This document shows positions 382 to 21,197 of a stretch of 64,000 bases of DNA, piece by piece. A program made the position numbers and the translations under genes. The stretch's first letter is position 1. Each line of letters starts with the position of its first letter. This DNA comes from an uncultured Chlorobiaceae bacterium (GTDB lineage: Bacteria > Bacteroidota > Chlorobiia > Chlorobiales > Chlorobiaceae): NCBI GenBank assembly GCA_903836465.1, contig CAILRB010000023.1:1-64000 (forward strand). Direction: 5' to 3'. Below the pieces are notes generated by a model. That model did no database searches. It was given only the letters and a program-made list of their open reading frames with translations, and was not told the DNA's origin.

Positions 382-3300
382 GTCGCAATCCGCTATGCGT
401 GCAATAAGATATAATCATCTTGAGACCTTCCTTATAATATCTGGGTATAAAAGTCGCAATCCGCTATGCGTGCAATAAGATATAATCGTTTTTCCGGTCT
501 CTAAGGGCGAACAATCAACCACGCTCTCAAGTCGCAATCCGCTATGCGTGCAATAAGATATAATCCGGCGGGTATCAGGTAGGTGACGGGAACCTTAACG
601 GGGAAGTCGCAATCCGCTATGCGTGCAATAAGATATAATCCTGAAGTGCCTCACCGGAGACGATACAGGGCTTGTGTCGCAATCCGCTATGCGTGCAATA
701 AGATATAATCCCAAAAAGGTCTGGCATATATCCAAATCTTAAAAAGGCAAGGAAGTCGCAATCCGCTATGCGTGCAATAAGATATAATCAGATCCGAGTT
801 GCGAACCAACTGTTGCTATGGTTTTGAGGATAGGTCGCAATCCGCTATGCGTGCAATAAGATATAATCACAATTTAAAAGGAGAACAGAAAAAATGTTAA
901 TACCAAAGTCGCAATCCGCTATGCGTGCAATAAGATATAATCCCCACGAGTCGGTGGGCTTCGTAAATGGTTAAGAGAGAAAAGTCGCAATCCGCTATGC
1001 GTGCAATAAGATATAATCCTTACTTACTTGGTATGACTATTTGCTTAATTCCGACGACAGTCGCAATCCGCTATGCGTGCAATAAGATATAATCGTGATA
1101 CCCAATAATTGTACATTCGCTGCGCATCCTTAGCAGGTCGCAATCCGCTATGCGTGCAATAAGATATAATCATTCCAAGAAAGGAAACATACCAGTTACT
1201 GCTAAATTGATTCAGTCGCAATCCGCTATGCGTGCAATAAGATATAATCCAGTAGAGGTTATATCCGAGGTTTTTATTGAGCTTGGTCGCAATCCGCTAT
1301 GCGTGCAATAAGATATAATCTGGGGATGGGATCACGGAGTTGAGGCTGTTCCAAGTTGTCGCAATCCGCTATGCGTGCAATAAGATATAATCATGCGGCA
1401 CGTGCGTTCAATCATATCGTCAATCTGCCGAGTCGCAATCCGCTATGCGTGCAATAAGATATAATCCCTCCGTGGAGAAGATATTGACCACGAAGACTAC
1501 TGCCAAAGTCGCAATCCGCTATGCGTGCAATAAGATATAATCATAAGGTCAATAATGATTCGAGTTGCAAATGGCCAGAGCACAAAACGTCGCAATCCGC
1601 TATGCGTGCAATAAGATATAATCACTCTGATGATGTTCGTGCCGAGAAGTACCTTAAGGGAGTCGCAATCCGCTATGCGTGCAATAAGATATAATCCGAA
1701 ATCTTTCGGCAAAAATGTAAGTGGAGGTTTTTATGAAAAAGTCGCAATCCGCTATGCGTGCAATAAGATATAATCCTATTTGAGGATCGGGGTGTTGACG
1801 GGCTTGATGCAGTCGCAATCCGCTATGCGTGCAATAAGATATAATCATAGAGTAGTAGGTAGTATTAGTACACTACTTAAAGATGGTCGCAATCCGCTAT
1901 GCGTGCAATAAGATATAATCGAGGGAGAATGTCTCAGTAAGTTAGCAAGTGGTGAGTGTCGCAATCCGCTATGCGTGCAATAAGATATAATCTGGTGCAA
2001 GTTGATGTGGGTACAGGATTGAGTGATGAAGTCGCAATCCGCTATGCGTGCAATAAGATATAATCCTAACATCTCCAAAACTTCTCGAGATGCTTCTTTG
2101 GGTCGCAATCCGCTATGCGTGCAATAAGATATAATCTGGGCCACTTCTTCCAGCTTAGGGCCGTTGACTGAGTCGCAATCCGCTATGCGTGCAATAAGAT
2201 ATAATCTCTCGATTTCGGAGATGGGTTTACTTGTGTTGAAGTAAAGTCGCAATCCGCTATGCGTGCAATAAGATATAATCACAACAGTTGTACAGTGAGA
2301 AAGAAGCAGCCGAAAAAGTCGCAATCCGCTATGCGTGCAATAAGATATAATCTCAAGCAACGACTCACAGGGAATCACGCAACAGGCAAGTCGCAATCCG
2401 CTATGCGTGCAATAAGATATAATCCAAATGGAAAAGAATTCGCTGGAAAGGTATATTCATACAGTCGCAATCCGCTATGCGTGCAATAAGATATAATCCA
2501 TATTTTTCCGTTGACGTTATCAGAGTTGAAGAATAGTCGCAATCCGCTATGCGTGCAATAAGATATAATCCCACGTTATAATGGCTCCACCTAAGACTGG
2601 TAAGTCTGTCGCAATCCGCTATGCGTGCAATAAGATATAATCTTCATCATCGGGAGCGTGAAATGAAAAAGCTCTACCGGAGTCGCAATCCGCTATGCGT
2701 GCAATAAGATATAATCTTGAGGAGGGAATGAAGTTGAAGGTTGAGCATTTGAAGGTCGCAATCCGCTATGCGTGCAATAAGATATAATCAGTAGGATAGC
2801 GTAATTAAACTGTACAAACGAACCATAGTCGCAATCCGCTATGCGTGCAATAAGATATAATCACAAAGGGAGACAAGCATCGCAATCTTTATCTTAGTCG
2901 CAATCCGCTATGCGTGCAATAAGATATAATCACGGCAAATGAACTCGGAGCAGCAATGTCAACAAGGTCGCAATCCGCTATGCGTGCAATAAGATATAAT
3001 CCATTCGAGGTGATAAACTTCCTCAATGTAGAGAGAGAAGGTCGCAATCCGCTATGCGTGCAATAAGATATAATCCAAAACGAAATACTACTCGAACATA
3101 GATTCACGTCGCAATCCGCTATGCGTGCAATAAGATATAATCTGGGGATCTACTGAGGAAGCAGAAAGCAAAATGGTTAGTCGCAATCCGCTATGCGTGC
3201 AATAAGATATAATCCAAGCGATACATGGGGATACGGACACTTGCTTTCCGGGTCGCAATCCGCTATGCGTGCAATAAGATATAATCCTGGCGCTGTGGTA

Positions 3301-3502
3301 GCTTTGAGACTGAAGGAACATTTTGTCGCAATCCGCTATGCGTGCAATAAGATATAATCGAAAATGAGGGTGAATACAATGAGCGTCGCACTTTGTCGCA
3401 ATCCGCTATGCGTGCAATAAGATATAATCTTTCAAAAACATCTCGCAGAAATGTTGAGCTTCATAACGTCGCAATCCGCTATGCGTGCAATAAGATATAA
3501 TC
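382..3502 (-). CRISPR. CRISPR array, 43 repeats and 42 spacers
   Basis: A 35-bp repeat, GTCGCAATCC...GATATAATC on the plus strand, occurs 43 times. The first copy is at 382-416 and the last at 3468-3502, and every copy I read is identical. Spacers run from 32 to 46 bp, mostly 35-41, the variable length usual for type III systems. Read on the minus strand, the repeat ends in ATTGCGAC, which resembles the ATTGAAAC-like 8-nt handle left by Cas6 in type III crRNAs. I therefore predict minus-strand transcription from the side next to RT-cas1. Seven spacers contain a Shine-Dalgarno-to-start-codon pattern on the plus strand, which fits crRNAs antisense to mRNA. The repeat's internal CGC-TAT-GCG can form only a very small hairpin. 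ORFs in the track across this region are artefacts of the repeat. Confidence 0.98.
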
Positions 3503-3754
3503 TGTACCTCTGGAAACCCGCACCAGTAAAGGGCTGCTGGCGCAAAAACCGGAGGATCGGTATTTTTCAGTAATGTCAAAGGACATTGAGCTGATTTTTA
3601 GTTGTTCAAGCGCCTGCATGTTATCAAATAATTGTGAGTTATGCAATATCCGAAGGATGCTAATTTATGGTTTTCCATATAACGTCATAATATATAAAGC
3701 GATAAGCGATATTTTCGAGCATTGGAAGCATTGCCGTAAATTATCATCCGGTTC
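3503..3754 (-). promoter_or_regulatory. Probable CRISPR leader
   Basis: These 252 bp lie between the last repeat and the 3' end of RT-cas1 and hold no convincing gene. Most of it is AT-rich. On the minus strand there is a tandem ATCGCTT ATCGCTT followed by TTATATATTATG, which could supply a -10 element. A perfect small inverted repeat, AATGTC-aaag-GACATT, lies at 3572-3587, about 70 bp from the first leader-side repeat. The leader assignment follows from the predicted array direction; the opposite end has only 50 bp before a transposase. The ORF at 3573-3968 (+) is a shadow. Confidence 0.55.
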
Positions 3755-6001
3755 TTACCATTCTGTCCGGTATGGCTCATACAGGGTTGTTGTTCCGGCA
3801 AGTACTCCACTTATTTTGACCACCTGCGATTCAATGTGCCGACGAAGATTCATGCTTTTGCCGCTTTGTGGGTCGAGTGACTCTTCCCACATGCGCTGTT
3901 CAAACACTTCAAGAAACTTTTTCCGTGCTTCGTCTGTAAGAAAGCATCCTGCTTTGTCTTTACGATAATAAAAATCCTTATTTCGTAAAACACCTTTGTT
4001 GAGGGTATAGAGCGTCATGGAATCGATAATGGTTCTGAACTCTTCGACGAGGTCGTTGATCAGCGCAGGGTTCCCCTTGTCTTCAGCGTGCAGGAAGCCG
4101 ATATAGGGGTTCAGTCCTTTCATGCGCACAAGAGAAAAGACATTGTTGTGCAGCAGGGTATAACCGAAACTGAGCAGGCTGTTGACTGGATCGGTTGGGG
4201 GTCGGCGTACCCGGCGAAATGCATCGGTGTAGAAAGGAAGCTCTTTTTTGAAGAGCAGGCCAAAGAGTTCAAAATACAACGCAGCAGCTTTGCCTTCAAG
4301 GCCTCTGAGCGCATCCATGTTTTCGCAGGTTTTGGTATGTTCAGCAAGCGATGTCATGAGCGAGAGGGTGGTGTCGAATTTTTCTTTCAACTCACCGTTG
4401 CTTTCCCATGCCATAGCGCGGCGTTTCTGGATCATGGTGCGTGAGTTCCTGATTTTTGCCTGCACGATGCGACTGGCAATGTCGAAGGCAAAGGGTTCAT
4501 CGAGCGATCGGAGGTACTGGAAGCGCTCTACTGCCGAGTTGTCGTTTGTGGTTGCTTCAAGTCTGCCGAAGTAGCTGCCATGTTGCGAAATAAAGGTAAT
4601 GGGAATGTTGTTTTTCATGCAGTACTGCATGGCTGGTGTGGTGAGCGAGACGTTGCCAAGCACCAGAATCTGATCTACCCTGCGGACGATGATGTCGTTA
4701 ATCTGGCGCTCCTCTTTTTCGACGCTGAACCGTTCACCCTCTTTGCGCAGAATGCTCCCCTGCTCTTGGAGATAAAGTGTGTTGAGCAGAGGAGAGTAAA
4801 GTTTATTGAGGGCAGCCTGCTTCTCTTTTTGCCGCAGAATGTCCTCTTTTGCCGTTTTTTCAAGGAACTTGTCGACATCAACCTGCTGTTTTTCAAGGCT
4901 CTGCAGCAGCTTTTCACCAAACTCCGTCTGAAGCAGTGTCTCTTTGGTGACGGTTATGGTGCCGGAGTCGCCGTCGCCGTTTTGCAGCTCGTATGCATCA
5001 GTATCGGCTTCAGAGCTCTGTTTCGGCGCTTTGCGGAGTTTCAGTTTGCCGAGTTTGTCGTACCACTCTTCCGGGTGCATTTTGGTGGGCAGCACCAGTG
5101 AGCGGATAAAGAGGTAGCCAAGATATTTGAACCCTTCGGAGAAAGTGGTGATCCTGGTTTTTTCGTTGTTGAGGTGCAGCTTCAGTTCTGCAAGCGCACT
5201 TTCGGAAAGTTCAAGTGCGGCTTCAGCTTTTGGTTTTGTTTTGCAGAGGATGAGAAAATCGTCGGCGAACCGAACCAGTTTGAACCCCTCTTTTTCAATA
5301 CGCTCATCGAACTTGTCGAGATAGAGGTTTGCCAGCATCGGTGAAATCGGACACCCTTGCGGCAGGCCGATGGTGTTCTTAACTTTTGGGTTCTGGCCGT
5401 CAACAATTTCTGCGGTCAGCCATCGGCTTATCAGCTTGAGCAGCTCCTCATCGTCACAAAGTTCACGAAACCGCTGAAAGAGTAACGGGTGATCAACCGT
5501 ATCGAAAAAGCTGCTGATGTCGGCATCAACGACCCAGTGGTAGCCAAGGTTTCGCAGTCGTTCAATTTCACGGGCAGCAGTTATGCGAGATAAGCCCTGA
5601 CGGTAGGCAAAAGTATTGGCGCCAAGTTCCGATTCAACAAGTGGAGTCAGCACAATTGCGGCTGCGGTCTGGGCAACCCGGTCCATCACTGTTGGAATCA
5701 AAAGGGTGCGGAGTTTTCCGGTAGGTTTGAGCATAACCAGTTTCAGGAGCGGCTGCGGCTCGTAGGTGCCGGTCAAAAGCTGTCTGCCAAGAGCGGCAAG
5801 ATGCTCTTCAATGCGCCACGAATAGTCGGTAATCGACTGCTTGTCGTACCCGGCCATGCCGTCGTTGGAAACCACTTTGTTCCATGCCTGAAAAAGTGTA
5901 TCAGGCAAAGCCATCTGGTTGTAAAGCCACCCCATGTGTTGCTCCGGGTTATTGAGGTTGAAGAAATGGTTACGGAACTTTGATAAGAGCACAGACGGCA
6001 A
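3755..6001 (-). CDS. cas1: Reverse transcriptase-Cas1 fusion (CRISPR adaptation)
   Basis: This 748-residue protein joins a group II intron-like reverse transcriptase to the Cas1 spacer integrase. Known RT-Cas1 enzymes acquire spacers from RNA as well as DNA. The RT part spans about residues 60-330: DADISSFFD carries the first catalytic Asp, GLPQGCPISPMLANLYLD is the next motif, and VRFADDFLIL (about 243-246) is the FADD form of the YxDD box. The Cas1 part begins near residue 437 (VDQILVLGN). It keeps the metal-binding triad: Glu in LEGKAA (about 567), His in GFLHAED (about 633) and Asp in NDLVEEFR (about 645). No N-terminal Cas6 domain is fused, unlike some relatives; Cas6 is encoded separately at the far end of the island. 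A roughly 100-residue charged linker separates the two halves. Its partner cas2 lies 2.4 kb away on the other strand. Confidence 0.96.
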   Translation of the reverse strand: MPSVLLSKFRNHFFNLNNPEQHMGWLYNQMALPDTLFQAWNKVVSNDGMAGYDKQSITDYSWRIEEHLAALGRQLLTGTYEPQPLLKLVMLKPTGKLRTLLIPTVMDRVAQTAAAIVLTPLVESELGANTFAYRQGLSRITAAREIERLRNLGYHWVVDADISSFFDTVDHPLLFQRFRELCDDEELLKLISRWLTAEIVDGQNPKVKNTIGLPQGCPISPMLANLYLDKFDERIEKEGFKLVRFADDFLILCKTKPKAEAALELSESALAELKLHLNNEKTRITTFSEGFKYLGYLFIRSLVLPTKMHPEEWYDKLGKLKLRKAPKQSSEADTDAYELQNGDGDSGTITVTKETLLQTEFGEKLLQSLEKQQVDVDKFLEKTAKEDILRQKEKQAALNKLYSPLLNTLYLQEQGSILRKEGERFSVEKEERQINDIIVRRVDQILVLGNVSLTTPAMQYCMKNNIPITFISQHGSYFGRLEATTNDNSAVERFQYLRSLDEPFAFDIASRIVQAKIRNSRTMIQKRRAMAWESNGELKEKFDTTLSLMTSLAEHTKTCENMDALRGLEGKAAALYFELFGLLFKKELPFYTDAFRRVRRPPTDPVNSLLSFGYTLLHNNVFSLVRMKGLNPYIGFLHAEDKGNPALINDLVEEFRTIIDSMTLYTLNKGVLRNKDFYYRKDKAGCFLTDEARKKFLEVFEQRMWEESLDPQSGKSMNLRRHIESQVVKISGVLAGTTTLYEPYRTEW

Positions 6002-6072: not shown

Positions 6073-6807
6073 ATGACGATGAAGGGTTCTATTGTACCGG
6101 ATTTATCAGAGCGGAGTCGCAGAGCGGTGGCTCATTATTGGCAAACAAGGAGAGCCCAGATAAAAAAGCAGCAAGAGATTGGCAAAACAGATCAAGGCCT
6201 TCGTAGTGCGGTTACTGGAGGCGCTCAAATGGATGGATTTATTGACTTGTTCACAGCACTCATTATCAATGCAGGTATTTCGGAACAGTATGTCTTTAGA
6301 AAAAAATCTGTTGAACTTCCGGGATATTTCAGGCCAACAAAAGAGTGGGATCTTCTGGTGGTAAGGGATCAAACGCTTATAGCGGCTATTGAAGCAAAAT
6401 CTCAAGTAGGGCCTTCTTTTGGAAATAATTTTAATAACCGGACTGAAGAGGCTATGGGCAGTGCTCTCGATTTGTGGACTGCTTATCGTGAACATGCTTA
6501 TCTTGATAGCCCTCAGCCCTTTCTCGGCTACTTCTTTATGTTGGAAGAGTGTGAGGCATCCAGTCGCTCGGTAAAGGTTAAAGAGCCTCATTTTAAGGTG
6601 TTTCAGGAGTTTGAAGGGGCATCGTACCAGCGTCGCTATGAACTTTTTTGTCGCAAACTTGTGCTTGAACGGCATTATACTGCTGCGGCTTTTATAACTT
6701 CTTCCGACAAAGAGGGGATTGACGGTAGTTTTCATGTACCGGCAGTTGATCTTTCTCTTGAACGGTTTGCTAAAATTCTTACGGGTCATATTGGCACATT
6801 TGTATGA
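6073..6807 (+). CDS. PaeR7I/XhoI-family type II restriction endonuclease
   Basis: At 244 residues this matches the PaeR7I/XhoI family, whose known members cut CTCGAG. The motifs I recognise are TDQGLRSAVTGGAQMDGF, LPGYFRPTKEWDLLVV and IAAIEAKSQVGPSFGNNFNN. The segment WDLLVV...IEAK looks like the PD-(D/E)xK core, with D in EWDLL and the E-A-K triplet supplying metal ligands. The stop codon overlaps the start of the methyltransferase (ATGA, 6804-6807), so the two are translationally coupled. The restriction gene precedes its methyltransferase, an order that normally needs some control on establishment. Recognition of CTCGAG is inferred from the family; specificity could have drifted. Confidence 0.9.
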   Translation: MTMKGSIVPDLSERSRRAVAHYWQTRRAQIKKQQEIGKTDQGLRSAVTGGAQMDGFIDLFTALIINAGISEQYVFRKKSVELPGYFRPTKEWDLLVVRDQTLIAAIEAKSQVGPSFGNNFNNRTEEAMGSALDLWTAYREHAYLDSPQPFLGYFFMLEECEASSRSVKVKEPHFKVFQEFEGASYQRRYELFCRKLVLERHYTAAAFITSSDKEGIDGSFHVPAVDLSLERFAKILTGHIGTFV

Positions 6808-7730
6808 ACAGCAGTCACAATAATACGTTGCACCGGCTCATTAACGGTGATGCCCGTGAACTTTCATTCCTTGAGGACGATTCGGTTCACCTTGTCATAA
6901 CCTCACCTCCTTACTGGAATCTGAAGCGGTACAATGAATCTCCTGATCAGCTTGGCCATATTGACGACTATGAGGCATTTCTTTTTGAACTTGAAAAAGT
7001 GTGGCATCATCTCTACAGGGTTCTTGTGCCGGGCGGGCGCCTTGTGTGTGTGGTCGGAGATGTTTGCGTTGCCCGGCGCGATTTTGGGCGGCATCTTGTT
7101 TTTCCCCTTCATGCAGATATTTGTGTTTCCTGCCGTCGAATTGGCTTTGATAACCTGAATCCGATTATCTGGCATAAGATAGCCAATGCCTCTTATGAGG
7201 TTACCAATGGCTCCAAGTTTCTTGGCAAGCCGTACGAACCAAATGCCATTATCAAAAATGATATGGAATTTATTCTTATGCAGCGAAAACCTGGAGGTTA
7301 TCGCAAACCAAGTGAACAACAGCGAGATGCCAGCAGGATCAGTAAAGATGATTTTAACCGATGGTTTCAGCAGATCTGGACGATTCCCGGTGCCTCAACT
7401 AAACAGCATCCCGCACCTTTTCCTCTTGAACTTGCCTTGCGGATTGTCAGAATGTTCTCGTTCGAAGGCGATACTGTACTTGATCCGTTCTGTGGTTCAG
7501 GGACTTCCATGATTGCCGCACTTAAAACTGGTCGCAACAGCATTGGTGTAGAAACTGATCCAGATTATTGCCGCATGGCTGCACGATATCTTAAAGCTGA
7601 AGCAAATGATTTTTTTTCTACAGCAAAGCTCGTTTTTGAAAAAGCGATGGTTCACGATGGTATCAGCATCAACGAAGATCAGGAGTTGTACAATATTTGT
7701 CCAGCAAAACAGAAGTTGGAGCAGGGCTGA
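6804..7730 (+). CDS. DNA methyltransferase (beta class, N6-A or N4-C), partner of the restriction enzyme
   Basis: This 308-residue enzyme should methylate the site cut by the upstream nuclease. The catalytic motif TSPPYWNLKRY (about 32-42) comes near the N terminus, and the AdoMet-binding motif DPFCGSGTSM (about 228-237) near the C terminus. This order defines the beta class of amino-methyltransferases (PF01555 type). SPPY occurs in both N4-cytosine and N6-adenine enzymes, so the product base is uncertain. It overlaps the restriction gene by 4 bp. The known M.PaeR7I is, to my knowledge, a longer gamma-class adenine methyltransferase, so this pair would combine a familiar nuclease with an unrelated methylase. 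A terminal extension after residue 255 has no motif I recognise. Confidence 0.88.
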   Translation: MNSSHNNTLHRLINGDARELSFLEDDSVHLVITSPPYWNLKRYNESPDQLGHIDDYEAFLFELEKVWHHLYRVLVPGGRLVCVVGDVCVARRDFGRHLVFPLHADICVSCRRIGFDNLNPIIWHKIANASYEVTNGSKFLGKPYEPNAIIKNDMEFILMQRKPGGYRKPSEQQRDASRISKDDFNRWFQQIWTIPGASTKQHPAPFPLELALRIVRMFSFEGDTVLDPFCGSGTSMIAALKTGRNSIGVETDPDYCRMAARYLKAEANDFFSTAKLVFEKAMVHDGISINEDQELYNICPAKQKLEQG

Positions 7731-8447: not shown

Positions 8448-8732
8448 ATGCAATTCATTCTCGTGACCTACGATATCGAAAACGACCGGCGCAGGACAAA
8501 AATCCATAAACTCCTTGAAGGGTATGGTTCAGCGGTGCAGTTCAGCGTGTTTGAGTGTTTCATCTCCGAAGAGGATTATGCCCAGTTGCGTATGCGTCTT
8601 CAAAAACTTCTGGATCCGAAGCACCCCCTTGATTCGGTTCGCTATTACGTACTGTGCAGGAACTGTGTTGAGCGGGTCGATGTTGATGGCAATCGAGATT
8701 TTGAGATTCAGAGCCCGTTTATTATTTCATAA
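8448..8732 (+). CDS. cas2: CRISPR-associated protein Cas2
   Basis: Cas2 pairs with Cas1 as the scaffold of the spacer-integration complex. The protein (94 residues) starts MQFILVTYDIENDRRRTKI, with the Asp of TYDI at the usual position, followed by GYGSAVQFSVFECFIS and a final strand near DSVRYYVLCRNC. I chose ATG 8448 over the TTG at 8433 because family members begin just before the first strand. Neither start has a strong ribosome-binding site. Its functional partner RT-cas1 is 2.4 kb upstream on the opposite strand, with a restriction-modification pair and a DUF pair in between. Confidence 0.93.
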   Translation: MQFILVTYDIENDRRRTKIHKLLEGYGSAVQFSVFECFISEEDYAQLRMRLQKLLDPKHPLDSVRYYVLCRNCVERVDVDGNRDFEIQSPFIIS

Positions 8733-8786
8733 AATACGTTATAACCAGCTCTCGTTCTGTAATAATTAGTTATAAAGTAGGTGATT

Positions 8787-9632
8787 ATGGACATCAAGAA
8801 GGTTATGGGTTCTCAACGCATAAAACGACTCGCTGAAAGCGTTTTTGGTAGAAACAATATTAGCGTCCAGGCAGTGATTTATGCTGCATTGCTTTTGCTG
8901 GCCATTGCTTGGTTACCAGTTGGTATAGCTGATTTTATAGATGACCATTGGTTATGGTTTAGCTGGTTGCCCTGTTCTTACAAGCTGATTGTATCTTTAG
9001 CAATCTTTGTAATTTTTGCTTGGCAACTGAGCCGTTTAGGCGGTGATGATAATAAAGTCCAGGTGCAGAAAACATCGCCAAAAAAGGTACGGGCACTTGG
9101 CGTATTTCTCAGTACTTTGGGCCCAACAAATGAGATTGTAGAAGAGAAAATTCTTGAAATTCAAAATTCTTTAGCTGTCTTGCCTGATACATCAGCGATT
9201 CTGTCAGTGTTGACTGGCAAGAACTGGGAAATGCCTCTCAAAGCAATTGAGTATCATCAGGGACAGCTTGAAGCGCTTTACGTTTTTACATCGAAAGGCA
9301 ATCCGGGCTCATCCGAAACAATGGCACTTTTTGAAACAATTGTTAATGCTCTTTATCCGGACTTGAAGATCAGGGAGGTTGATGTGCATGGAATAGAATT
9401 TGAAGATGTTGAAGCGGTGTTTAACCAAGTTGAATCATTTTACGACATGGCCAAAAAAGACGGATTTCCGGAGCAGGAGATTCTTGTAGATGTTACTGGC
9501 GGACAAAAGCCTAACAGCATTGCTGCTTCAATAGCGACACTCATAACGGGCAGAAAGTTTCAGTATATCAGTACTGTCACAAAAGAAGTTCACGCATACG
9601 ATGTATGGTATATTGATCAAGTAAAAAGTTAG
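8787..9632 (+). CDS. Membrane-anchored CARF-domain protein (candidate cOA effector)
   Basis: The protein (281 residues from ATG 8787, preceded by TAGGTG) has two hydrophobic helices near its N terminus, about 28-50 (VIYAALLLLAIAWLPVGIAD) and 65-85 (KLIVSLAIFVIFAW). A CARF-like ligand-binding domain follows: ALGVFLSTLGPTNE starts the fold, ALYVFTSKGN is an inner strand, and VDVTGGQKPNSIAASIAT (about 234-251) is the signature loop and helix. No HEPN, PD-(D/E)xK or other catalytic domain is visible, so the membrane part is probably the output. This layout recalls Cam1 and Csx23, which respond to cyclic oligoadenylate at the membrane, though I cannot assign it to either family. It follows cas2 and stands upstream of the cas10 operon that would make the signal. 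Confidence 0.78.
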   Translation: MDIKKVMGSQRIKRLAESVFGRNNISVQAVIYAALLLLAIAWLPVGIADFIDDHWLWFSWLPCSYKLIVSLAIFVIFAWQLSRLGGDDNKVQVQKTSPKKVRALGVFLSTLGPTNEIVEEKILEIQNSLAVLPDTSAILSVLTGKNWEMPLKAIEYHQGQLEALYVFTSKGNPGSSETMALFETIVNALYPDLKIREVDVHGIEFEDVEAVFNQVESFYDMAKKDGFPEQEILVDVTGGQKPNSIAASIATLITGRKFQYISTVTKEVHAYDVWYIDQVKS

Positions 9633-10567: not shown

Positions 10568-11746
10568 ATGAGTGTGCAACAAAGAAATTGCAAACAACTT
10601 CTTCTTCTCGTCGGTTCCAACCCCCTGCCTAACTTTTTGGCCGCTCTCATTTTGAAGCCCGAATCTATCTGTCTTTTCTACAGCCCTGAGACCGAAAGAG
10701 TAAAGAATTATCTTCTTGAAATCCTGAAAGCTAGGGTTGGGAAGGAGGGCTTGAGTGAAAAGTGTATTGCGAATGCGACAGACCCGTCAGTAGTTAGACA
10801 AGCCTTTAAATCGATTTCCAGAGATTCACATCTTCATTACACTGGCGGAACCAAGATCATGGCGGCTCATGCCCGAATGGCTTTTCGTGATGCTGGTGGG
10901 AAAGATGAACAAGCCTCTTACCTGGATGAGCGAAATGCAGTTTTGCGCTTCGACGATAACTATGAAATTCTTGTATCAAAGCAGCTCCTCGAATTGACTA
11001 TAGACGAGATTCTTGGGCTGCATGGGATCAAGAGACAACCTATTTTCATGGTGCAACACTCTCCTTCTGCCAATCAGGCACTTCCGTCGGATGTGGATGT
11101 GAAAAAGATGGTCGAGGCTGTTCTTGATAATCCATGTATAGCTAATCAGCTTTATAATATCACTCGTGATGAGGGGAAAAACCGTTCTTTTTCTGATGCC
11201 AAGAGTTGCCCAGTACTGATCGATAATTTTGTGTCAGGTTTGACTATTAAGCAACTTCCAGAAAATGGCTGGTCAAGAAATACTTTTGATAAGTGGTGTG
11301 AATTTCTGGAAAGTGGATGGCTTGAGAGATGGTGTGGTGGTCTTGTGCAGGATATTGCAGCTGAATCGGTGGTTTGTATCAATGTTAACTGTGTGCGGAA
11401 AGATGGTCGGCAATTTGAAATTGATGTGGCGCTTGTCTGCGGACATAGGCTTTATGTAATCTCATGTACTACTGATACCAAGATTAAACTTTGTAAATCA
11501 AAGTTGTTTGAAGTTGCCATGCGCGCACGCCAGTTGGGTGGTGATTTGGCTCGTTGCGCCCTTGTCTGTCTGCTCCACGGCAGCGATGAAAAAGGGTCTT
11601 TTGTCGATCAACTTCGAAGTGATGTAGCCGATATCTGGGATGCACAGAATACACCTCAAGTCTTTGGCCTTGACGATCTCAAGGAGTGGGCTGGTATCCA
11701 GGGGGAGCCGAATGTGGGCACCCTTCAACAATGGATTGAATCATAG
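10568..11746 (+). CDS. CARF-domain protein with PD-(D/E)xK-like C-terminal domain (candidate cOA-activated nuclease)
   Basis: This 392-residue protein resembles the Card1/Can2 (DUF1887-like) effectors of type III systems, which bind cyclic oligoadenylate and cut nucleic acid. The N-terminal CARF domain starts LLLLVGSNPLPNFLAA and has the ligand loop HYTGGTKIMAAH (about 89-100). A middle, possibly winged-helix region spans about 170-250. The C-terminal domain has QFEIDVALVCGHRLYVISCTT (about 280-300), where relatives usually read D...IECKT. The Asp is present, but Glu is replaced by Ser and Lys by Thr, so activity is uncertain or depends on shifted residues such as the nearby lysines. AAAGGAG precedes the ATG. 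It is the first gene of the effector operon, 12 bp before cas10. Confidence 0.82.
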   Translation: MSVQQRNCKQLLLLVGSNPLPNFLAALILKPESICLFYSPETERVKNYLLEILKARVGKEGLSEKCIANATDPSVVRQAFKSISRDSHLHYTGGTKIMAAHARMAFRDAGGKDEQASYLDERNAVLRFDDNYEILVSKQLLELTIDEILGLHGIKRQPIFMVQHSPSANQALPSDVDVKKMVEAVLDNPCIANQLYNITRDEGKNRSFSDAKSCPVLIDNFVSGLTIKQLPENGWSRNTFDKWCEFLESGWLERWCGGLVQDIAAESVVCINVNCVRKDGRQFEIDVALVCGHRLYVISCTTDTKIKLCKSKLFEVAMRARQLGGDLARCALVCLLHGSDEKGSFVDQLRSDVADIWDAQNTPQVFGLDDLKEWAGIQGEPNVGTLQQWIES

Positions 11747-11758
11747 GAGGAACTTCTT

Positions 11759-13327
11759 ATGCCTGTTTTGACAGGGATTGACGTGTTAGGGGTGCAGCGG
11801 TTTGTCTTTGCTTCGAACCGGTTGAAGGATGTGGTGACGGGTTCGTTTCTTGTGCATTGGTGCACCGTGCCTGACGGACCACTGTCCTGTTCAGGCTCTA
11901 CGGGAAGCATCTTGTTTGCCGGTGGTGGGAACGCCATAGTCGAGTTTAATACCAATGAGGAAGCAAAAGTCTTTGCTGCCCTCTATACCCGCCTTCTTTA
12001 CGATGAAGTACCGGGGCTTGAAGTCGTTTTGGTGCACGAGATATTCGAACACGGAAATCTGGCTGTAGCACTCCAGAATCTTCAGATCAAACTTGCTCGT
12101 GCGAAAACGCAGCGTTTTCCATCAGTACCACTATCAGGTCTTTCAGTAACAGCTACCTGTATGGAAACAGGCCAGCCAGCCACACGATTTGATCGAGATG
12201 AAAAGAGCGTCAAAATTTCGCACAATATCGTTAGCCGTCGAGAAAAAAAGGGCAAAGCCATCGAATATTGGGAAAAATATTTGGAGGATAAGACGTGTTA
12301 TGATTTTCCGCTGGAACTGGATAATCTCGGCCGTGACAAGGGCGATACCAGTCTGATAGGAGTCGTTCATGTTGACGGAAACGGGGTTGGTAAAAAAATC
12401 ACGGCTTGGCTCTCAGCACAGTCTGATGATGAGACGGTGCGGCGAGAATACAGAGAGTGGTCTCAGGCCATTGATCGACTTGGGCAGGAAGCATTGTTCG
12501 CTGTTGTAGATCGTATTTTTCAGAGGGTGGAGAGAAGCGATGATGGGAACCCGCCAAAGGTAACCGGAATACCGAAGGGGTTGTGTTTTGACTTGAAGGC
12601 TGAAACAGGCAGTAAATGGATGCTTCCAATACGACCTATATTGCTCGGAGGAGACGACCTGACATTCGTTTGCGACGGTCGCATCGCTTTGGATTTGGCA
12701 GAAACAGCACTTAGCGTATTTGAACATAGCAATATCCCACATCTCGGAAATATATCCGCAAGTGCAGGTATAGCTATCGTTCGCGTTCATGCGCCCTTTG
12801 CAAGGGCTTACGAATTGGCTGAAAAACTGTGCCGGTCCGCAAAGGACAAACTGAAAAAAGAAGATGATCAAGGTTGTGCACTGGATTGGCACATCGGCAT
12901 TGCGCGACCGGGAGAGTCGGTAACAACTATTCGGAATAAGCAATATCTGGCAAATGGTTATCAACTAACTTGCAGACCTTATCTTCTTGGCTCAGAACAA
13001 GATGATAACAAGGTAACTTGGCGTTGGCTGTCCCGAACCCTTTTGGATGGCAAAGTGTTCGGCTTAAGAGGCGAAAGCTGGTCTGAACGGCGAAACAAGG
13101 TCAAGGATTTTGCCGAATTGGTGCGTGAAGGGCCGGATGTTGTTCTGTCAGCCCTTGACGCATGGCGTGTGGTGGAAAACAAGCTTCAACTGCCACAACC
13201 TATTGGAAACAGTGGTTTTATCGCGACTCGAACACCTTTACTGGATGCAGCCGAGATCGTTGATTTGCACCTTGTACTGGAACATATTGATCATCAGCAA
13301 GCAAAGGAATCGGAGGTTAAGCAATGA
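11759..13327 (+). CDS. cas10: Type III Cas10, HD-less, cyclase-competent
   Basis: Cas10 is the large subunit of type III complexes and makes cyclic oligoadenylate when target RNA is bound. At 522 residues it is short. It begins directly with a ferredoxin-like region (GIDVLGVQRFVFAS) and has no N-terminal HD nuclease motif. The palm motif VVHVDGNGVGKKI lies near 205, and the cyclase motif LLGGDDLTFV near 294-303, with GGDD intact. So DNA cutting by Cas10 is not expected, while second-messenger synthesis is. AGGAGG precedes the ATG. The stop overlaps the next gene by 4 bp (ATGA), coupling translation. Type III-D Cas10 proteins often lack HD, in keeping with the csx10 and csx19 genes downstream. 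Confidence 0.92.
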   Translation: MPVLTGIDVLGVQRFVFASNRLKDVVTGSFLVHWCTVPDGPLSCSGSTGSILFAGGGNAIVEFNTNEEAKVFAALYTRLLYDEVPGLEVVLVHEIFEHGNLAVALQNLQIKLARAKTQRFPSVPLSGLSVTATCMETGQPATRFDRDEKSVKISHNIVSRREKKGKAIEYWEKYLEDKTCYDFPLELDNLGRDKGDTSLIGVVHVDGNGVGKKITAWLSAQSDDETVRREYREWSQAIDRLGQEALFAVVDRIFQRVERSDDGNPPKVTGIPKGLCFDLKAETGSKWMLPIRPILLGGDDLTFVCDGRIALDLAETALSVFEHSNIPHLGNISASAGIAIVRVHAPFARAYELAEKLCRSAKDKLKKEDDQGCALDWHIGIARPGESVTTIRNKQYLANGYQLTCRPYLLGSEQDDNKVTWRWLSRTLLDGKVFGLRGESWSERRNKVKDFAELVREGPDVVLSALDAWRVVENKLQLPQPIGNSGFIATRTPLLDAAEIVDLHLVLEHIDHQQAKESEVKQ

Positions 13328-13959
13328 ATCAGAGCCAGTTTATTCAGATTGAGCTTCTTTCCGATGCAGCTTTCAGCCGAGGCGAAGGCACTGCTGGTGT
13401 CGTGGATATTGAGGTAGAGCACGACGAATTGGGGTTACCGTTTCTGGGAGGTAAAACGCTTCGTGGATTGCTTCACGATACATGGCTTTCCATGCAATAC
13501 TGCTTTCCGGAATTGAATTTATTGGCGGATCGAATCTTCGGATCTGATGCTGATTTCGATGAGAACTCTATCTTGCGGATCGGAGATGCTGTAGTGGATA
13601 GTGAAACTCGCAATTGGATTGAGGCGGCTGTATCTCGGCAAAGCCATCCTATATGCCCAAAAATGGTATTGGAGGCACTTACTGATATCCGTCAACAGAC
13701 TTCAGAAGAGAGAAGTACAGGAGCACCAGCCGAAACTACTTTACGGTCGATTCGTGTGATAATTCGAGGTTTGAAGTTGCAGTCACCTCTCTATTGGCTG
13801 GCTGAGCCAACTGATGAAGAACTCCGTTGCTTGTCATTGGCACTTCTGGCTACCCGGTATGCAGGGCTTGGTCGTAATCGTGGCCGGGGGCATATCAGCT
13901 TGACTCTCAATGGAAATAGAGCAAAAACAATTCAGTTGGTCAACGGAGTTGAAATATGA
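13324..13959 (+). CDS. Cas7-group RAMP protein (Csm3-like)
   Basis: Cas7 proteins form the crRNA-binding backbone of type III complexes and cut target RNA. This 211-residue protein opens with the RAMP strand IQIELLSDAAFSRGEG, then LGLPFLGGKTLRGLLHD, and ends with the glycine-rich loop GLGRNRGRGHIS. The Asp in GVVDIEVEHDE (residue 28) aligns by eye with the catalytic Asp of Csm3 (AIDSPVIKD), so it should cut. It overlaps both neighbours by ATGA. In III-D2/III-Dv systems a Cas7 of this sort is fused to Cas5 and Cas11; here it remains a separate gene in front of csx10. Confidence 0.85.
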   Translation: MNQSQFIQIELLSDAAFSRGEGTAGVVDIEVEHDELGLPFLGGKTLRGLLHDTWLSMQYCFPELNLLADRIFGSDADFDENSILRIGDAVVDSETRNWIEAAVSRQSHPICPKMVLEALTDIRQQTSEERSTGAPAETTLRSIRVIIRGLKLQSPLYWLAEPTDEELRCLSLALLATRYAGLGRNRGRGHISLTLNGNRAKTIQLVNGVEI

Positions 13960-15659
13960 ATCGATACTGCTACCTGCCCTATACCCTCAGGCTGAATTCT
14001 CCTGTTATCATCACAGCTCCCGGAGGTGATCCGAACAGCTCCTCAACTCTCTCGTACATCCCCGGAACGGCTATGCGGGGGGCTGTAGCAAAAGCATTAG
14101 GTGATCCGGGTGTTGACAGCTTAAGACAACATGAATTCCATGAGCTTGTCCTTGGCGGAATAGTTCGTTATTTGAATGCCTATCCACTTGTTGACAAGCG
14201 GCGAGCATTGCCAACCCCTGTCAGCTTCAGGCTGCGTAAGGATAGGCCAGAAAATACACGAGATATAATAGACCTTTCTGCTGATGGTTGGCCGAAGGAA
14301 GAATTAATTTCTATTGGCGAGGAGTTTCTCACCGTAGGAGCTGCTCGTCCTGCATTGTTCCATCCGAAAATCAGTTCCCGTATTCACCATCAACGCGACC
14401 GTGAGAAAGGACGAGCTTGGAAAAGCAAGAATGGTACGCTTGAAAAAGCACTTGAGGAGGCCACTGAGATCAGTGAGAAAGGGCAAGAATGGAAAAATAA
14501 AAATGACAATACCCATGGTGCTATTTTCACCTTTGAATCTCTGGATTCCAATCAAACGTTTGAAGGATTGATCCAGTTGTGCTCTGGGCAAGCAGAAAAA
14601 TGGGATCAAATCGAGAGTCGTATCAAGGTGTTGCTGGGAGGGTCATTACTTGTGGGGAGATCCCGGCGGGCGGGCTATGGCGGGATGGCAACCATTGAAT
14701 GGGGGGCCAGACAAAGCCATGAGACAGGAGGAGGCGGAACAGATGGTTTACGACCGTTGAACTGGAATATCGAACCAGGTAAGCAATTTCGCTTACTTCT
14801 TTCTTCTCCCTGTATTGCGAGAAATCAAACGACGGGTCAGCCAGATCCTGCCGCATTGGTGGAAATAATCACGAGCCGGTTCAGTAATCGGGCGGAAGTG
14901 ATACGAAAAGTATGGACCTTCGAAGCTGTCGGAGGATTTAACCGAAAATGGCGATTGGAATTACCACAAACTTTGGCTGTTTCTGCCGGGTCGGTGTTTG
15001 TGCTCAAAGCAAATCAAGCAATTACTCTCAACGAACTGCACGAGATTGAGCATGAGGGTTTTGGAGAGCGAAAAGGTGAGGGGTATGGGCGTCTGCTGTT
15101 TCTTGATAAACCTTCAAATATCTCTCTGAATATATTTACTGAACCACCATCCAAGACAGCAGTTATCGGTCAACCCTCTGAGATTGTCACCAAAATTGAA
15201 TCAAGAATAGTTCAGGCTCAACTTGCAAGAAGGATAGAGGAGAAGGCCGCTGAATTAGCCGGGTCTGCCAAAAAACCGCTGCCGACAAACAGCCTGATCG
15301 GACGGTTGAGAACACCGTTTCGCAGCGCAACTCATGAAGCTATCAGTACCATGAAGTTGTGGCTGTCTAACAACGAAGCTCATCAATTGAAGCGGTCAGC
15401 CATGGATCAGTTGGAGGGCTGCAAAATCAATGACGGAAAAGATATGCGTTCATGGATACTGGCGGCGATGAACAGAGATGTGATACTCAAATGGCTTGAT
15501 TTAGACGTTCTGGCTCAACGATTTTACGTGGTTTCCAAAGAATCAGTAAATAGTGGGGTAGAAAAAAAATTCGAAGAGCTTTCTGTCAGATTGATCGATG
15601 CCGTACTGGCCAACCTCACCATCCGGAACAAATTGCAGGAGGAAAATCATGCTCAATAA
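13956..15659 (+). CDS. csx10: Csx10-type Cas5 RAMP protein with helical C-terminal tail
   Basis: Csx10 is the Cas5-like subunit that caps the crRNA 5' handle in type III-D complexes. The 567-residue protein begins YLPYTLRLNSPVIIT and has SYIPGTAMRGAVA, then VGRSRRAGYGGM, KWRLELPQTLAVSAGSVF and the glycine loop GFGERKGEGYGRLLF (about 363-378). After residue 400 comes a stretch of about 160 residues that reads as mostly helical and charged (for example IESRIVQAQLARRIEEKAAE). No stand-alone Cas11/Csm2-like small subunit is present in the operon, so this tail may take that role. It overlaps cas7 by 4 bp and the next gene by 11 bp. Confidence 0.85.
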   Translation: MNRYCYLPYTLRLNSPVIITAPGGDPNSSSTLSYIPGTAMRGAVAKALGDPGVDSLRQHEFHELVLGGIVRYLNAYPLVDKRRALPTPVSFRLRKDRPENTRDIIDLSADGWPKEELISIGEEFLTVGAARPALFHPKISSRIHHQRDREKGRAWKSKNGTLEKALEEATEISEKGQEWKNKNDNTHGAIFTFESLDSNQTFEGLIQLCSGQAEKWDQIESRIKVLLGGSLLVGRSRRAGYGGMATIEWGARQSHETGGGGTDGLRPLNWNIEPGKQFRLLLSSPCIARNQTTGQPDPAALVEIITSRFSNRAEVIRKVWTFEAVGGFNRKWRLELPQTLAVSAGSVFVLKANQAITLNELHEIEHEGFGERKGEGYGRLLFLDKPSNISLNIFTEPPSKTAVIGQPSEIVTKIESRIVQAQLARRIEEKAAELAGSAKKPLPTNSLIGRLRTPFRSATHEAISTMKLWLSNNEAHQLKRSAMDQLEGCKINDGKDMRSWILAAMNRDVILKWLDLDVLAQRFYVVSKESVNSGVEKKFEELSVRLIDAVLANLTIRNKLQEENHAQ

Positions 15660-17118
15660 CCTGGCAAGCTCCAGAAATGCTGGCGGCATACGGCCCATGG
15701 TTGCCCGCTGGGTCGTTACCGGAGAGATGAGGCTGGAAACGGCAGCTCACTTTGGTGGCGAAGGCGAGAGCTTGGCTGACATGACGCTTTTGCGTGATTC
15801 TTTGGATGGTATAACACCACTTTTTCCCGGTACTTCGCTGGCAGGTGCTCTACGCAGTCATTTAGCCGATGTGCTGGGCGGATATTTTTCTAATGAGGAT
15901 AAAGCTGTGGCCACGTTATTCGGGATGTCCCGGAAAAATGATGCTGATGGTGCACAAAGCCCATTGATCGTCTTTGATTCTTCAGGTGAGTTGCCAGATG
16001 GTCTGAAAGTGGAAATCCGTGATGGTGTTGCCATAAATTCCGCTACCGGGACGGCAGATCCTCACAAGAAGTTCGATATTGAGGTACTTCCGACAGGGAC
16101 AATTTTTCCTGTCAGAGTGGAACTTGTTGTTGAAAAGAGTGAGGAGGAGCCTAAACTTGTTACCCTTCTGGTTAAAGCTCTCGACGGACTGACCAGCGGG
16201 GAGATTTCACTCGGCATGAGGCGTTCCCGAGGGCTTGGAGCTGTTGGTGCCCGAAACTGGAAAACCAGGAGGTTTGAGTTGAACACCAGTGATGGCTGGA
16301 TAAACTGGCTGACATCGGATCATGTAAATCCCTTAGCCCATGAGACTCCGTTCAATTCAGCCCGTGAAGCCATTGAATCAGCATGTCCGGCATTGCGTTT
16401 GGAAAAGACTCCTGACGACAAGAGGTCTCGATTGGTTATTGATGTTGATTTACAACTTGACGGAGATTTGCTGGTTAGAAGCCCAGGATGCGATCCTACG
16501 GCACCGGATGCTGTCCATCTGCACAGTGCAGGAAAGCCCGTCCTGCCTGGAACGAGTTTGGCTGGCGCACTGAGGGCCCAAGCACTGAGAATTGCACGTT
16601 GTGTCCGTAGTTCTCAGAAAGACGGTGATGAATGGATCAACCGGCTTTTCGGCCCGCATATCGAAAACAAGCAGAATTCAAGCTCACCTCGACCAAGTGC
16701 ATCCAAACTGCGTGTTTCGGAAAACATCATCGGTGATAGCAAACCTCGCCGACAGACACGTATAGCCATTGACCGTTTTACAGGAGGCGTTGTATCGGGA
16801 GCACTTTTCGATGAGGAGGTTCAAGCTGGAGGTAAAATCAACGTGCGACTTGAACTGCGCCAACCGACCGAAGCTGAAACCGGCCTGATTCTCCTATTAC
16901 TCAAAGACCTTCTTTCTGGAGAGATTCCCGTTGGTGGATCGGCTTCGGTAGGCCGGGGCGTTTTCAAGGGGACGGCTAAATTGTTGCTGGAGAATGGAAA
17001 ACAATACGATATCAGCCCTGATTTGCAGGTAAAAAAAGAGGTTATGTATGACTTCAATGCTTTTATCACAAAATTTCGTGATGCAGCACAGTTAAAAGCC
17101 GGGGAGGTGATCTCATGA
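15649..17118 (+). CDS. Double Cas7 (Cas7-2x) RAMP protein
   Basis: The protein (489 residues) contains two Cas7 units in tandem. Unit 1 (about 15-225) has GITPLFPGTSLAGALRSHL and later SLGMRRSRGLGAVG; unit 2 (about 260-480) has GKPVLPGTSLAGALRAQ and VGGSASVGRGVFKG. Each unit keeps an Asp at the expected cleavage-loop position: LADMTLLRD (D44) in the first and PDAVHLHS in the second. Two target-RNA cuts are therefore expected from this subunit. I start it at ATG 15649, preceded by AGGAGG, rather than at the ORF-track start 15598, which lies well inside csx10. A similar Cas7-2x protein is a hallmark of III-D2/III-Dv complexes. Confidence 0.88.
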   Translation: MLNNLASSRNAGGIRPMVARWVVTGEMRLETAAHFGGEGESLADMTLLRDSLDGITPLFPGTSLAGALRSHLADVLGGYFSNEDKAVATLFGMSRKNDADGAQSPLIVFDSSGELPDGLKVEIRDGVAINSATGTADPHKKFDIEVLPTGTIFPVRVELVVEKSEEEPKLVTLLVKALDGLTSGEISLGMRRSRGLGAVGARNWKTRRFELNTSDGWINWLTSDHVNPLAHETPFNSAREAIESACPALRLEKTPDDKRSRLVIDVDLQLDGDLLVRSPGCDPTAPDAVHLHSAGKPVLPGTSLAGALRAQALRIARCVRSSQKDGDEWINRLFGPHIENKQNSSSPRPSASKLRVSENIIGDSKPRRQTRIAIDRFTGGVVSGALFDEEVQAGGKINVRLELRQPTEAETGLILLLLKDLLSGEIPVGGSASVGRGVFKGTAKLLLENGKQYDISPDLQVKKEVMYDFNAFITKFRDAAQLKAGEVIS

Positions 17119-17711
17119 AAGAGCCTAAAGGATGCACAATCGAACGGCTCGATAATGATGCTTGCAAAGCTGTTCTGAATTGGGTAAGGAAGGAGGGAGA
17201 ATCTTGTCAAGAAGGCACTTTTCCTTGGTTGTTGGCACATTGCCACGATGGCGTGACCTGGGGGCGATTCGATATCGTAACCAAGGATTGGCTTCTCTCT
17301 TCAAAGCCCTTTCCAACCCTTTGCCCGCAAGTGTCAGAATCCAATCTTCTTGAAATCCGACTGTTCGGTTCGGAACGGGAAATCCTTATCTGGCAAACTG
17401 AGACTGGATTTTCTGGCAGATGCCTGATTGATAAAAAAGAACAGGACAACAACGATCCCTGCCGTCCTGATAATGAAACCCGAATTTTGCTGGGGGATCG
17501 GGTTCTGGAGACTTCAAAAGGGGGTTTTACCTGCGTTGGCACTGCCAGAGGTCTCAAGCAGGCTGTACCGTTAGAATGTACGGATAATGATTTTGCAGAA
17601 GGCCGTTGGCCGCTTCGGGTAACGATGCGGCATTATTTTGAGCAAGATGATGAAACTGGTGCAGTCCGTGTGGCTGCAAGCCGCCTTGTAACTATTTTCA
17701 AGGAGAATTGA
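17115..17711 (+). CDS. csx19: Csx19-family type III-D subunit (TIGR03984)
   Basis: Csx19 is a subunit found with type III-D effector genes. The 198-residue protein shows the family features I recall: AHCHDGVTWGRFD near residue 45, NLLEIRLFGSEREILIWQ near 78-95, and the tail VTMRHYFEQDDETGAVRVAASRL. It has no known catalytic motif. It overlaps the double-cas7 gene by 4 bp (ATGA) and is followed after 3 bp by the large RAMP gene, so it is part of one polycistronic message. Confidence 0.85.
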   Translation: MKEPKGCTIERLDNDACKAVLNWVRKEGESCQEGTFPWLLAHCHDGVTWGRFDIVTKDWLLSSKPFPTLCPQVSESNLLEIRLFGSEREILIWQTETGFSGRCLIDKKEQDNNDPCRPDNETRILLGDRVLETSKGGFTCVGTARGLKQAVPLECTDNDFAEGRWPLRVTMRHYFEQDDETGAVRVAASRLVTIFKEN

Positions 17712-17714
17712 CAG

Positions 17715-20162: not shown

Positions 20163-20346
20163 ATGTGCTGTTGGAATACGATCTGTTAATGAATCTTGAT
20201 GACTGTTTTGGAACCGCTTTGAAACCGTATTACGCAATTTTTTATTGAAACAGGAGTAAGTGAATTGTTGGACGCAGATGGACAATACCTCTTCAGGAAG
20301 CGCCAATTTCACAGTGTACAAAATCTTATAATTGCACTCCAAAATA

Positions 20347-21197
20347 TGCGCATCACCCTCGAACTATCCCACCGCAAACGGACAGTGACGCTGCCAATAA
20401 ACAACAGCCACCTCATCTCCTCCCTCATCTACAACATCGTTGATAAAAGCTCAAGCGACTACGCCGAGCGGTTGCATGAGCAAGGATACAGGTTGCAGAA
20501 CAGGGCTTTCAAGCTGTTCACTTTTTCACCGCTTTATCCCGGAAACCACCATAAGTGGGTGATGCACGAGAACGGGACAATGAGCACTGCCGAGGCATTA
20601 CTGCATGTTACGGTCTCTTCTCCAAAGAATGAGTTTATTGAGCATCTGGTGATTGGCTTGTTGCAGGAGCCGTTGGTCTTGGTCGGGAATCAACGGTTCA
20701 AGGTTGAGACGGTTCGCAAGCTTGATTCACCTGACTTGAGTGACAACATGCCGTTTATCATGCTTTCACCTTTGGTCTGTACTACAAAGCGTGAGCTTGA
20801 GCAGTATCCTCAGTATCTTTTTCCGGGTGATTCGGAGTTTGAACGGGTTTTGCTTGAAAATCTTTTGCGGAAATATCAGGTGCTGCATGGGCGTGAGTTT
20901 GCCTGCACAAGTGAGCAATTCAGCTTTTCGATTGATCATGCTTATGTCGAGCGGATGAATGGTAAAATTCAGAAGTTGATCACCCTGAAGGAGGGGAGAA
21001 GTGATGAAACAAAAATCAAGGGTACGCTTGCACCGTTCAGGCTTCAAGCTCCTCGTGAACTGATTGAGGTTGGGTATGAGTGCGGGTTTGGGGAAAAGAA
21101 TTCGCAGGGTTTTGGGATGGTGAAGCTTGATACTACTCATCCCACTGACGATGTAAAGGATGGGCATCCGGCAAATAGAGAGATATCTGATCTGTGA
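20347..21197 (+). CDS. cas6: Cas6 pre-crRNA endoribonuclease
   Basis: Cas6 cuts the array transcript within each repeat. From ATG 20347 the protein is 283 residues. It starts MRITLELSHRKRTVTLPINN, with LISSLIYNIVDK typical of the first RAMP fold and HEQGYRLQNRAFKLFTFSPL in the region that usually holds the catalytic His. It ends with the glycine loop YECGFGEKNSQGFGMVKL. The start is uncertain. A TTG at 20265, in frame and eight bases after AGGAG, would add 27 residues, whereas the ATG fits the family start but lacks a ribosome-binding site. The gap after the RAMP gene suggests looser coupling than in the rest of the operon. Confidence 0.9.

Follow-up and report, generated by a model that had tools for sequence, protein, structure and literature searches.

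The locus considered here raises the question of whether a bacterial CRISPR array linked to a reverse transcriptase (RT) has been filled with pieces of mRNA, and whether these pieces were drawn preferentially from the start regions of genes. The window, a stretch of 64,000 nucleotides from an uncultured green sulfur bacterium of the Chlorobiaceae (GenBank assembly GCA_903836465.1, contig CAILRB010000023.1), carries an array at 382-3502 in which 42 spacers, 32-46 nt long, alternate with 43 identical repeats of 35 nt. The first-pass annotation of this DNA had observed that seven spacers resemble a Shine-Dalgarno (SD) sequence followed by a start codon, all on the plus strand, and had proposed, in view of an RT-Cas1 adaptation protein, that spacers were taken from mRNA, perhaps near 5' ends, and that the crRNAs pair with ribosome-binding sites (RBS).

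The RT-Cas1 fusion is indeed present, alongside a full set of adaptation and effector genes. It is encoded on the minus strand at 3755-6001 and comprises 748 amino acids, with an RT domain at residues 27-300 that includes the FADD motif and a Cas1 domain at 404-748. The FADD aspartates, the motif A aspartate and Cas1 H638 and D650 are invariant, while E569 is conserved in at least 90% of sequences; judged from the alignment, the catalytic residues of both domains are retained. The RT-Cas1 adaptation module is completed by cas2 (8454-8675, plus strand; PF09827, E=1e-23), the sole Cas2 match in the genome, and a gene pair for an XhoI-like restriction enzyme and an N6/N4 methylase (6073-7730) lies between the RT-Cas1 gene and cas2. 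Two predicted ancillary effectors of the cyclic-oligoadenylate type follow on the plus strand, a CARF-transmembrane protein of the Csx1 type (8781-9632) and a Can2/Card1-like CARF-PDDEXK nuclease (10568-11746). The type III-D operon (11759-20162), likewise on the plus strand, consists of a III-D type cas10 (11759-13327; Cas10d, E=2e-117), a cas7-like RAMP (13324-13959), csx10, the cas5 of III-D (13956-15659), a cas7-like double RAMP (15598-17118), csx19 (17115-17711) and a cas7-like RAMP with an insertion (17715-20162), and cas6 stands behind it (20265-21197, plus strand). The locus is thus a complete III-D system with RT-Cas1, Cas2 and Cas6, of an already known kind, and RT-Cas1 orthologues accompanied by related repeats were found in 18 further Chlorobiaceae genomes.

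The meaning of a plus-strand start site depends on the direction in which the array is read. On the minus strand the repeat reads GATTATATCTTATTGCACGCATAGCGGATTGCGAC, with the handle ATTGCGAC, and related arrays, on the strand that matches the minus strand of the window, end their repeats in ATTGAAAC or ATTGCGAC, which is the usual type III handle. Additionally, the degenerate terminal repeat of related arrays lies at the end far from RT-Cas1, and in 10 Chlorobiaceae loci the first repeat is preceded by a conserved stretch of about 160-190 nt, which places the putative leader at 3503-3690 on the minus strand; a promoter scan of this leader scored no higher than shuffled sequences. Handle, degenerate repeat and conserved leader together indicate that the minus strand gives rise to the crRNAs, so that the plus strand of the spacers would correspond to the target RNA and spacers with an RBS and ATG would yield crRNAs antisense to start regions. 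The proposal that the crRNAs are antisense to mRNA-like sequence is borne out by this orientation, with its conserved leader at the right end, and by the coding signal on the plus strand in related arrays. The C-terminal part of an IS630-like transposase (17-331) abuts the distal end of the array, which its insertion may have truncated.

All seven listed spacers are present with the letters as reported. Five of them read AAGGAG-N10-ATG in spacer 7 (869-907), GGAGGT-tttt-ATG in spacer 18 (1697-1740), GGAG-cgtgaa-ATG in spacer 31 (2643-2681), GGAG-cagca-ATG in spacer 35 (2932-2966) and GAGGGTGA-ataca-ATG in spacer 41 (3360-3394), the second from the leader. Two are weak, namely spacer 16 (1543-1588), with only AAGG/AGGT before its ATG, and spacer 32 (2717-2754), where the strongest SD, AGGAGG, stands 2 nt from an ATG or 8 nt from a TTG. 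Two further plus-strand candidates had been passed over, GAGG-gaga-ATG in spacer 21 (1921-1957) and AGGA-ttgagtg-ATG in spacer 22 (1993-2030), and the assertion that none lies in reverse holds nearly, except that the spacer at 1095-1136 carries a reversed AGGA-N10-ATG. Formal scoring of both strands against shuffled spacers gave unequal frequencies. The fixed motif (GGAG/GAGG/AGGA)N4-10 ATG, hereafter m1, occurs in 8 of 42 spacers on the plus strand and 1 of 42 on the minus strand (shuffles 1.8-2.0, p<0.001; sign test p=0.04), and an SD match of at least 4 nt to AAGGAGGTGA followed by ATG occurs in 10 spacers on the plus strand and 2 on the minus strand (shuffle mean 4.0; p=0.003 with mononucleotide and 0.005 with dinucleotide shuffling). 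Five-base SD matches showed no significant excess in the window array (5 vs 2.8, p=0.13).

The asymmetry extends beyond these spacers, since the whole plus strand of the spacers is rich in purines (57.1%; 31 spacers above and 9 below 50%, p=8e-6), including their interior bases alone (56.1%, p=5e-4). Replication relied on three sets of non-redundant spacers, comprising 445 from other Chlorobiaceae RT-Cas1 arrays, 824 from RT-linked arrays of other phyla and 580 from RT-free Cas1 loci. From the RT-free set two loci were withdrawn, L141, in which an RT gene adjoins cas1, and L144, the array of Cyanothece SIO2G6, whose genome has an RT fragment at one contig end and Cas1 at the start of another. 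The purine bias of the target strand recurred in other arrays, both among 227 spacers (p=2e-8) and among 319 fetched later (p=3e-9), and interior purine content reached 54.2% in the Chlorobiaceae family, 52.1% in other RT arrays and 51.1% in RT-free arrays. When Chlorobium prophage genes were used to train a codon model, with composition controlled by shuffling, the model preferred the target strand over the other by 295:150 in other Chlorobiaceae (z=9.1, 445 spacers), 528:296 in other RT arrays (z=9.6) and 339:241 in RT-free Cas1 arrays (z=4.8). True sense fragments, used as controls, gave 146:57 and 157:69, and at a model accuracy of 72% the sense fraction of the three spacer sets, in the order just given, solves to about 0.87, 0.82 and 0.69. 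The window array alone, unlike its relatives, was neutral (21:21, z=1.1), for which small numbers or many untranslated fragments are the only explanations that we can offer. Among spacers coding for pentapeptide repeats (A(N/D)LXX), five are sense and none antisense on the target strand; these belong to arrays gc_L105 (L105), gc_L093 (L093) and G036 (L088), and their source could be host or phage. By these compositional estimates, the one-strandedness of Chlorobiaceae RT-Cas1 spacers is solid, at some 80-90% sense where RT-free Cas1 arrays reach about 70%.

The sense strand bears a second feature at its 3' end. At the last two positions of the target strand, A occurs in 50% and 41% of Chlorobiaceae family spacers, against 30% inside, and AA closes 28% of the 445 spacers compared with 10% of interior positions (p=2e-25); the corresponding terminal frequency is 29% in the window, 15% in other RT arrays and 9% in RT-free arrays. 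Terminal A residues come in runs: an A at -1 is preceded by another at -2 with a probability of 0.56, vs 0.35 inside. In Marinomonas, RT-Cas1 was found to tail RNA protospacers with 3'-dA, and RNA-derived spacers prefer A at positions 1-2 of the 3' tail (PMC11014452). By analogy, the terminal AA of Chlorobiaceae spacers fits such tailing, and the A-rich sense ends may be dA tails kept from RNA protospacers; an AA excess is the trace that would be left if sense RNA always integrated its tail at the leader side. Terminal A showed no dependence on the coding-sense score, a comparison with little power, since even among low-scoring spacers the majority is probably sense.

Whether start regions as such are favoured was assessed against the frequency of m1 in sense 38-mers, which is 2.5-6.3% in T7, P-SSP7, this genome and Chlorobium phages, with 0.7-3% in antisense. 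The window value of 19% exceeds a sense baseline of 3.5-6.3% (p=1e-4 to 4e-3), although this array was picked for the feature. In the Chlorobiaceae spacers outside the window, m1 occurs in 30 of 445 (6.7%) on the target strand and in 7 on the other, a rate above a baseline of 4.5% (p=0.02) but not above one of 5.6% (p=0.17), and the 319 spacers fetched after m1 was fixed contained 10 (3.1%), where shuffles gave 9.0. All RT arrays together reach 84/1312 (6.4%) vs 17/580 (2.9%) in RT-free arrays (p=0.002), and the RT arrays differ among themselves beyond chance (p=0.001) because of L144 and the window array. In L144 (L144:1501-3727), whose RT-Cas1 is split over two contigs, 9 of 29 spacers contain a perfect SD-ATG (p=2e-5 vs 5.5%); several of them have the common upstream motif TTTCGATTTCGAATTTT, and their sequences suggest 5' regions of several genes within a single element. 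The suggested preference for 5' ends is accordingly weak, with m1 in the 445 spacers reaching no more than about 1.5-2 times the sense baseline, while the window array and L144 stand out. The start-site excess would be due mostly to one-strandedness in gene-dense mRNA, and a true start preference is possible in some arrays. Low RNA structure was rejected as a selecting feature, as the spacers are slightly more structured than shuffles.

Searches for the sources of the window spacers in phages, plasmids, related genomes, prophages and IMG/VR found no protospacer. The whole array gave no match to phages and one chance match to plasmids (E=0.9), and spacers matched 121 related genomes at chance level. 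Chlorobium prophages and IMG/VR phages retrieved through terminase queries offered no usable match to window and first-batch family spacers, nor did eight window spacers searched as paired degenerate patterns in IMG/VR. A prophage match of window spacer 10 (78% over 36 nt) was rejected as a chance GA-rich resemblance, and L144 yielded chance matches to staphylococcal phages only, with no self-match outside its own array. The sole source found in the family set concerns spacer G019|1, with a 30-nt match to the non-coding att site of a Chlorobium prophage at the 3' end of ssrA (L213:9152-9181); the match diverges within the site, as expected for the attP of an ssrA-integrating phage.

Several explanations compete for these observations. 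That the pattern is pure chance in a purine-rich spacer set is scarcely credible; the five-base SD result in the window array would allow it, whereas the four-base motif surpassed its shuffles and the replication in other arrays refutes chance for the strand bias, in agreement with the initial remark that chance would not favour one strand. The further step from one strand to an RT is unsafe, since selection through an effector that targets RNA is enough to bias natural type III arrays (PMC8482600, PMC7515739). Under such selection, DNA would be captured at random, only transcript-binding crRNAs would survive since the III-D effector needs RNA targets, and the RT would be minor. Spacers of Thermus type III systems became strongly biased only after selection (PMC7515739), natural type III arrays in general prefer the coding strand (PMC8482600), and the RT-free arrays compared here lean to the sense side too; with bias present in RT-free arrays and the Thermus experiment showing its cause, effector selection surely accounts for part of the strand bias. 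As the whole explanation it appears unlikely, given that the bias is stronger with an RT (0.82-0.87 sense vs 0.69; interior purine p=0.002), that the purine bias runs unchanged from the leader to the distal end with no age trend, and that an AA excess at the 3' end is not predicted by it.

An intrinsic preference of Cas1-Cas2 for an A-rich or purine-rich end or strand might instead orient the prespacers, making sense orientation a by-product of purine-rich, mRNA-like strands. The independence of terminal A from the coding score is also what a plain integrase end preference would produce, but the coding phase signal is controlled for composition and interior purine is equal in A-ending and other spacers, which leaves this explanation improbable. 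We regard as similarly improbable that acquisition favours the start regions of mRNA, as 5' ends, open single strands or ribosome-covered fragments, with RBS-directed crRNAs as the point of the system. The window array, L144, the heterogeneity among RT arrays and their higher m1 rate than RT-free arrays speak for it, as does a reported enrichment 10-50 bp downstream of start codons in the RT-free III-A system of S. thermophilus (PMC9048733). Against it, the held-out Chlorobiaceae spacers stay within or slightly above the 3.5-6.3% sense baseline and the last batch does not depart from its shuffles; a ribosome-footprint origin was rejected, since the position of ATG within spacers is uniform (KS p=0.8).

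The reading that we consider probable is that the spacers of this RT-Cas1 type III-D system, which belongs to a Chlorobium-like bacterium, consist mainly of sense fragments of mRNA, perhaps viral. The first proposal that spacers come from mRNA gains indirect support from the A-rich sense 3' end and a bias stronger than in RT-free arrays. As the A-rich ends suggest, RT-Cas1-Cas2 would take short mRNA fragments and add a few non-templated dA residues to their 3' ends; the tailed end would be joined at the leader side, an event that sets the orientation, and the RNA would be copied into DNA by the RT or some other polymerase. A minus-strand array transcript, oriented by comparison with related arrays, would be cut by Cas6 into crRNAs antisense to mRNA, a Csm/Cmr-like complex with Cas10 would bind matching transcripts, and the CARF effectors, to judge from their families, would answer cyclic oligoadenylates. 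Selection for transcript-binding spacers would strengthen the bias, and RBS-ATG spacers would arise because gene-dense mRNA contains start sites, with possibly a small extra start preference of at most about 1.5-2 fold overall and more in the window array.

Among known systems, the locus resembles the III-D module of Vibrio vulnificus (Gonzalez-Delgado 2019) in combining RT-Cas1 with a III-D effector. RNA-derived spacers were shown there when the proteins were supplied; little strand bias outside rRNA is reported for that module, while the natural Chlorobiaceae arrays are strongly sense-biased with A-rich sense 3' ends. Marinomonas mediterranea (Silas 2016; PMC5576922; PMC11014452) likewise employs RT-Cas1, and the end composition found here matches its 3'-dA tailing, but its system is III-B, with fused Cas6 and spacers in either orientation, in contrast to a III-D system with separate Cas6 and one dominant orientation. 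The RT-Cas1 III-B arrays of Arthrospira also hold natural RT-linked spacers with almost no traceable protospacers, and strand or end composition of the kind measured here was not found in the accessible part of that account (PMC5513706). Thermus thermophilus and other RT-free type III arrays (PMC7515739, PMC8482600) share crRNAs that favour transcripts; their bias comes from selection, and the RT-free arrays measured here are less biased and poor in terminal A.

What is new is a signature of strand and terminal A that makes natural RNA acquisition testable. Tentatively, and with somewhat less confidence than in the reading above, the Chlorobiaceae arrays may be viewed as a fossil record of RNA acquisition, written in one orientation, with untemplated 3'-dA tails kept, guides antisense by construction rather than by selection, and some arrays enriched in start sites. 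If the strand-fixed sense signature and the kept 3'-A tails are real, natural RNA acquisition would become testable from sequence alone across hundreds of genomes, and the two possible origins of antisense orientation, writing and selection, could be separated.
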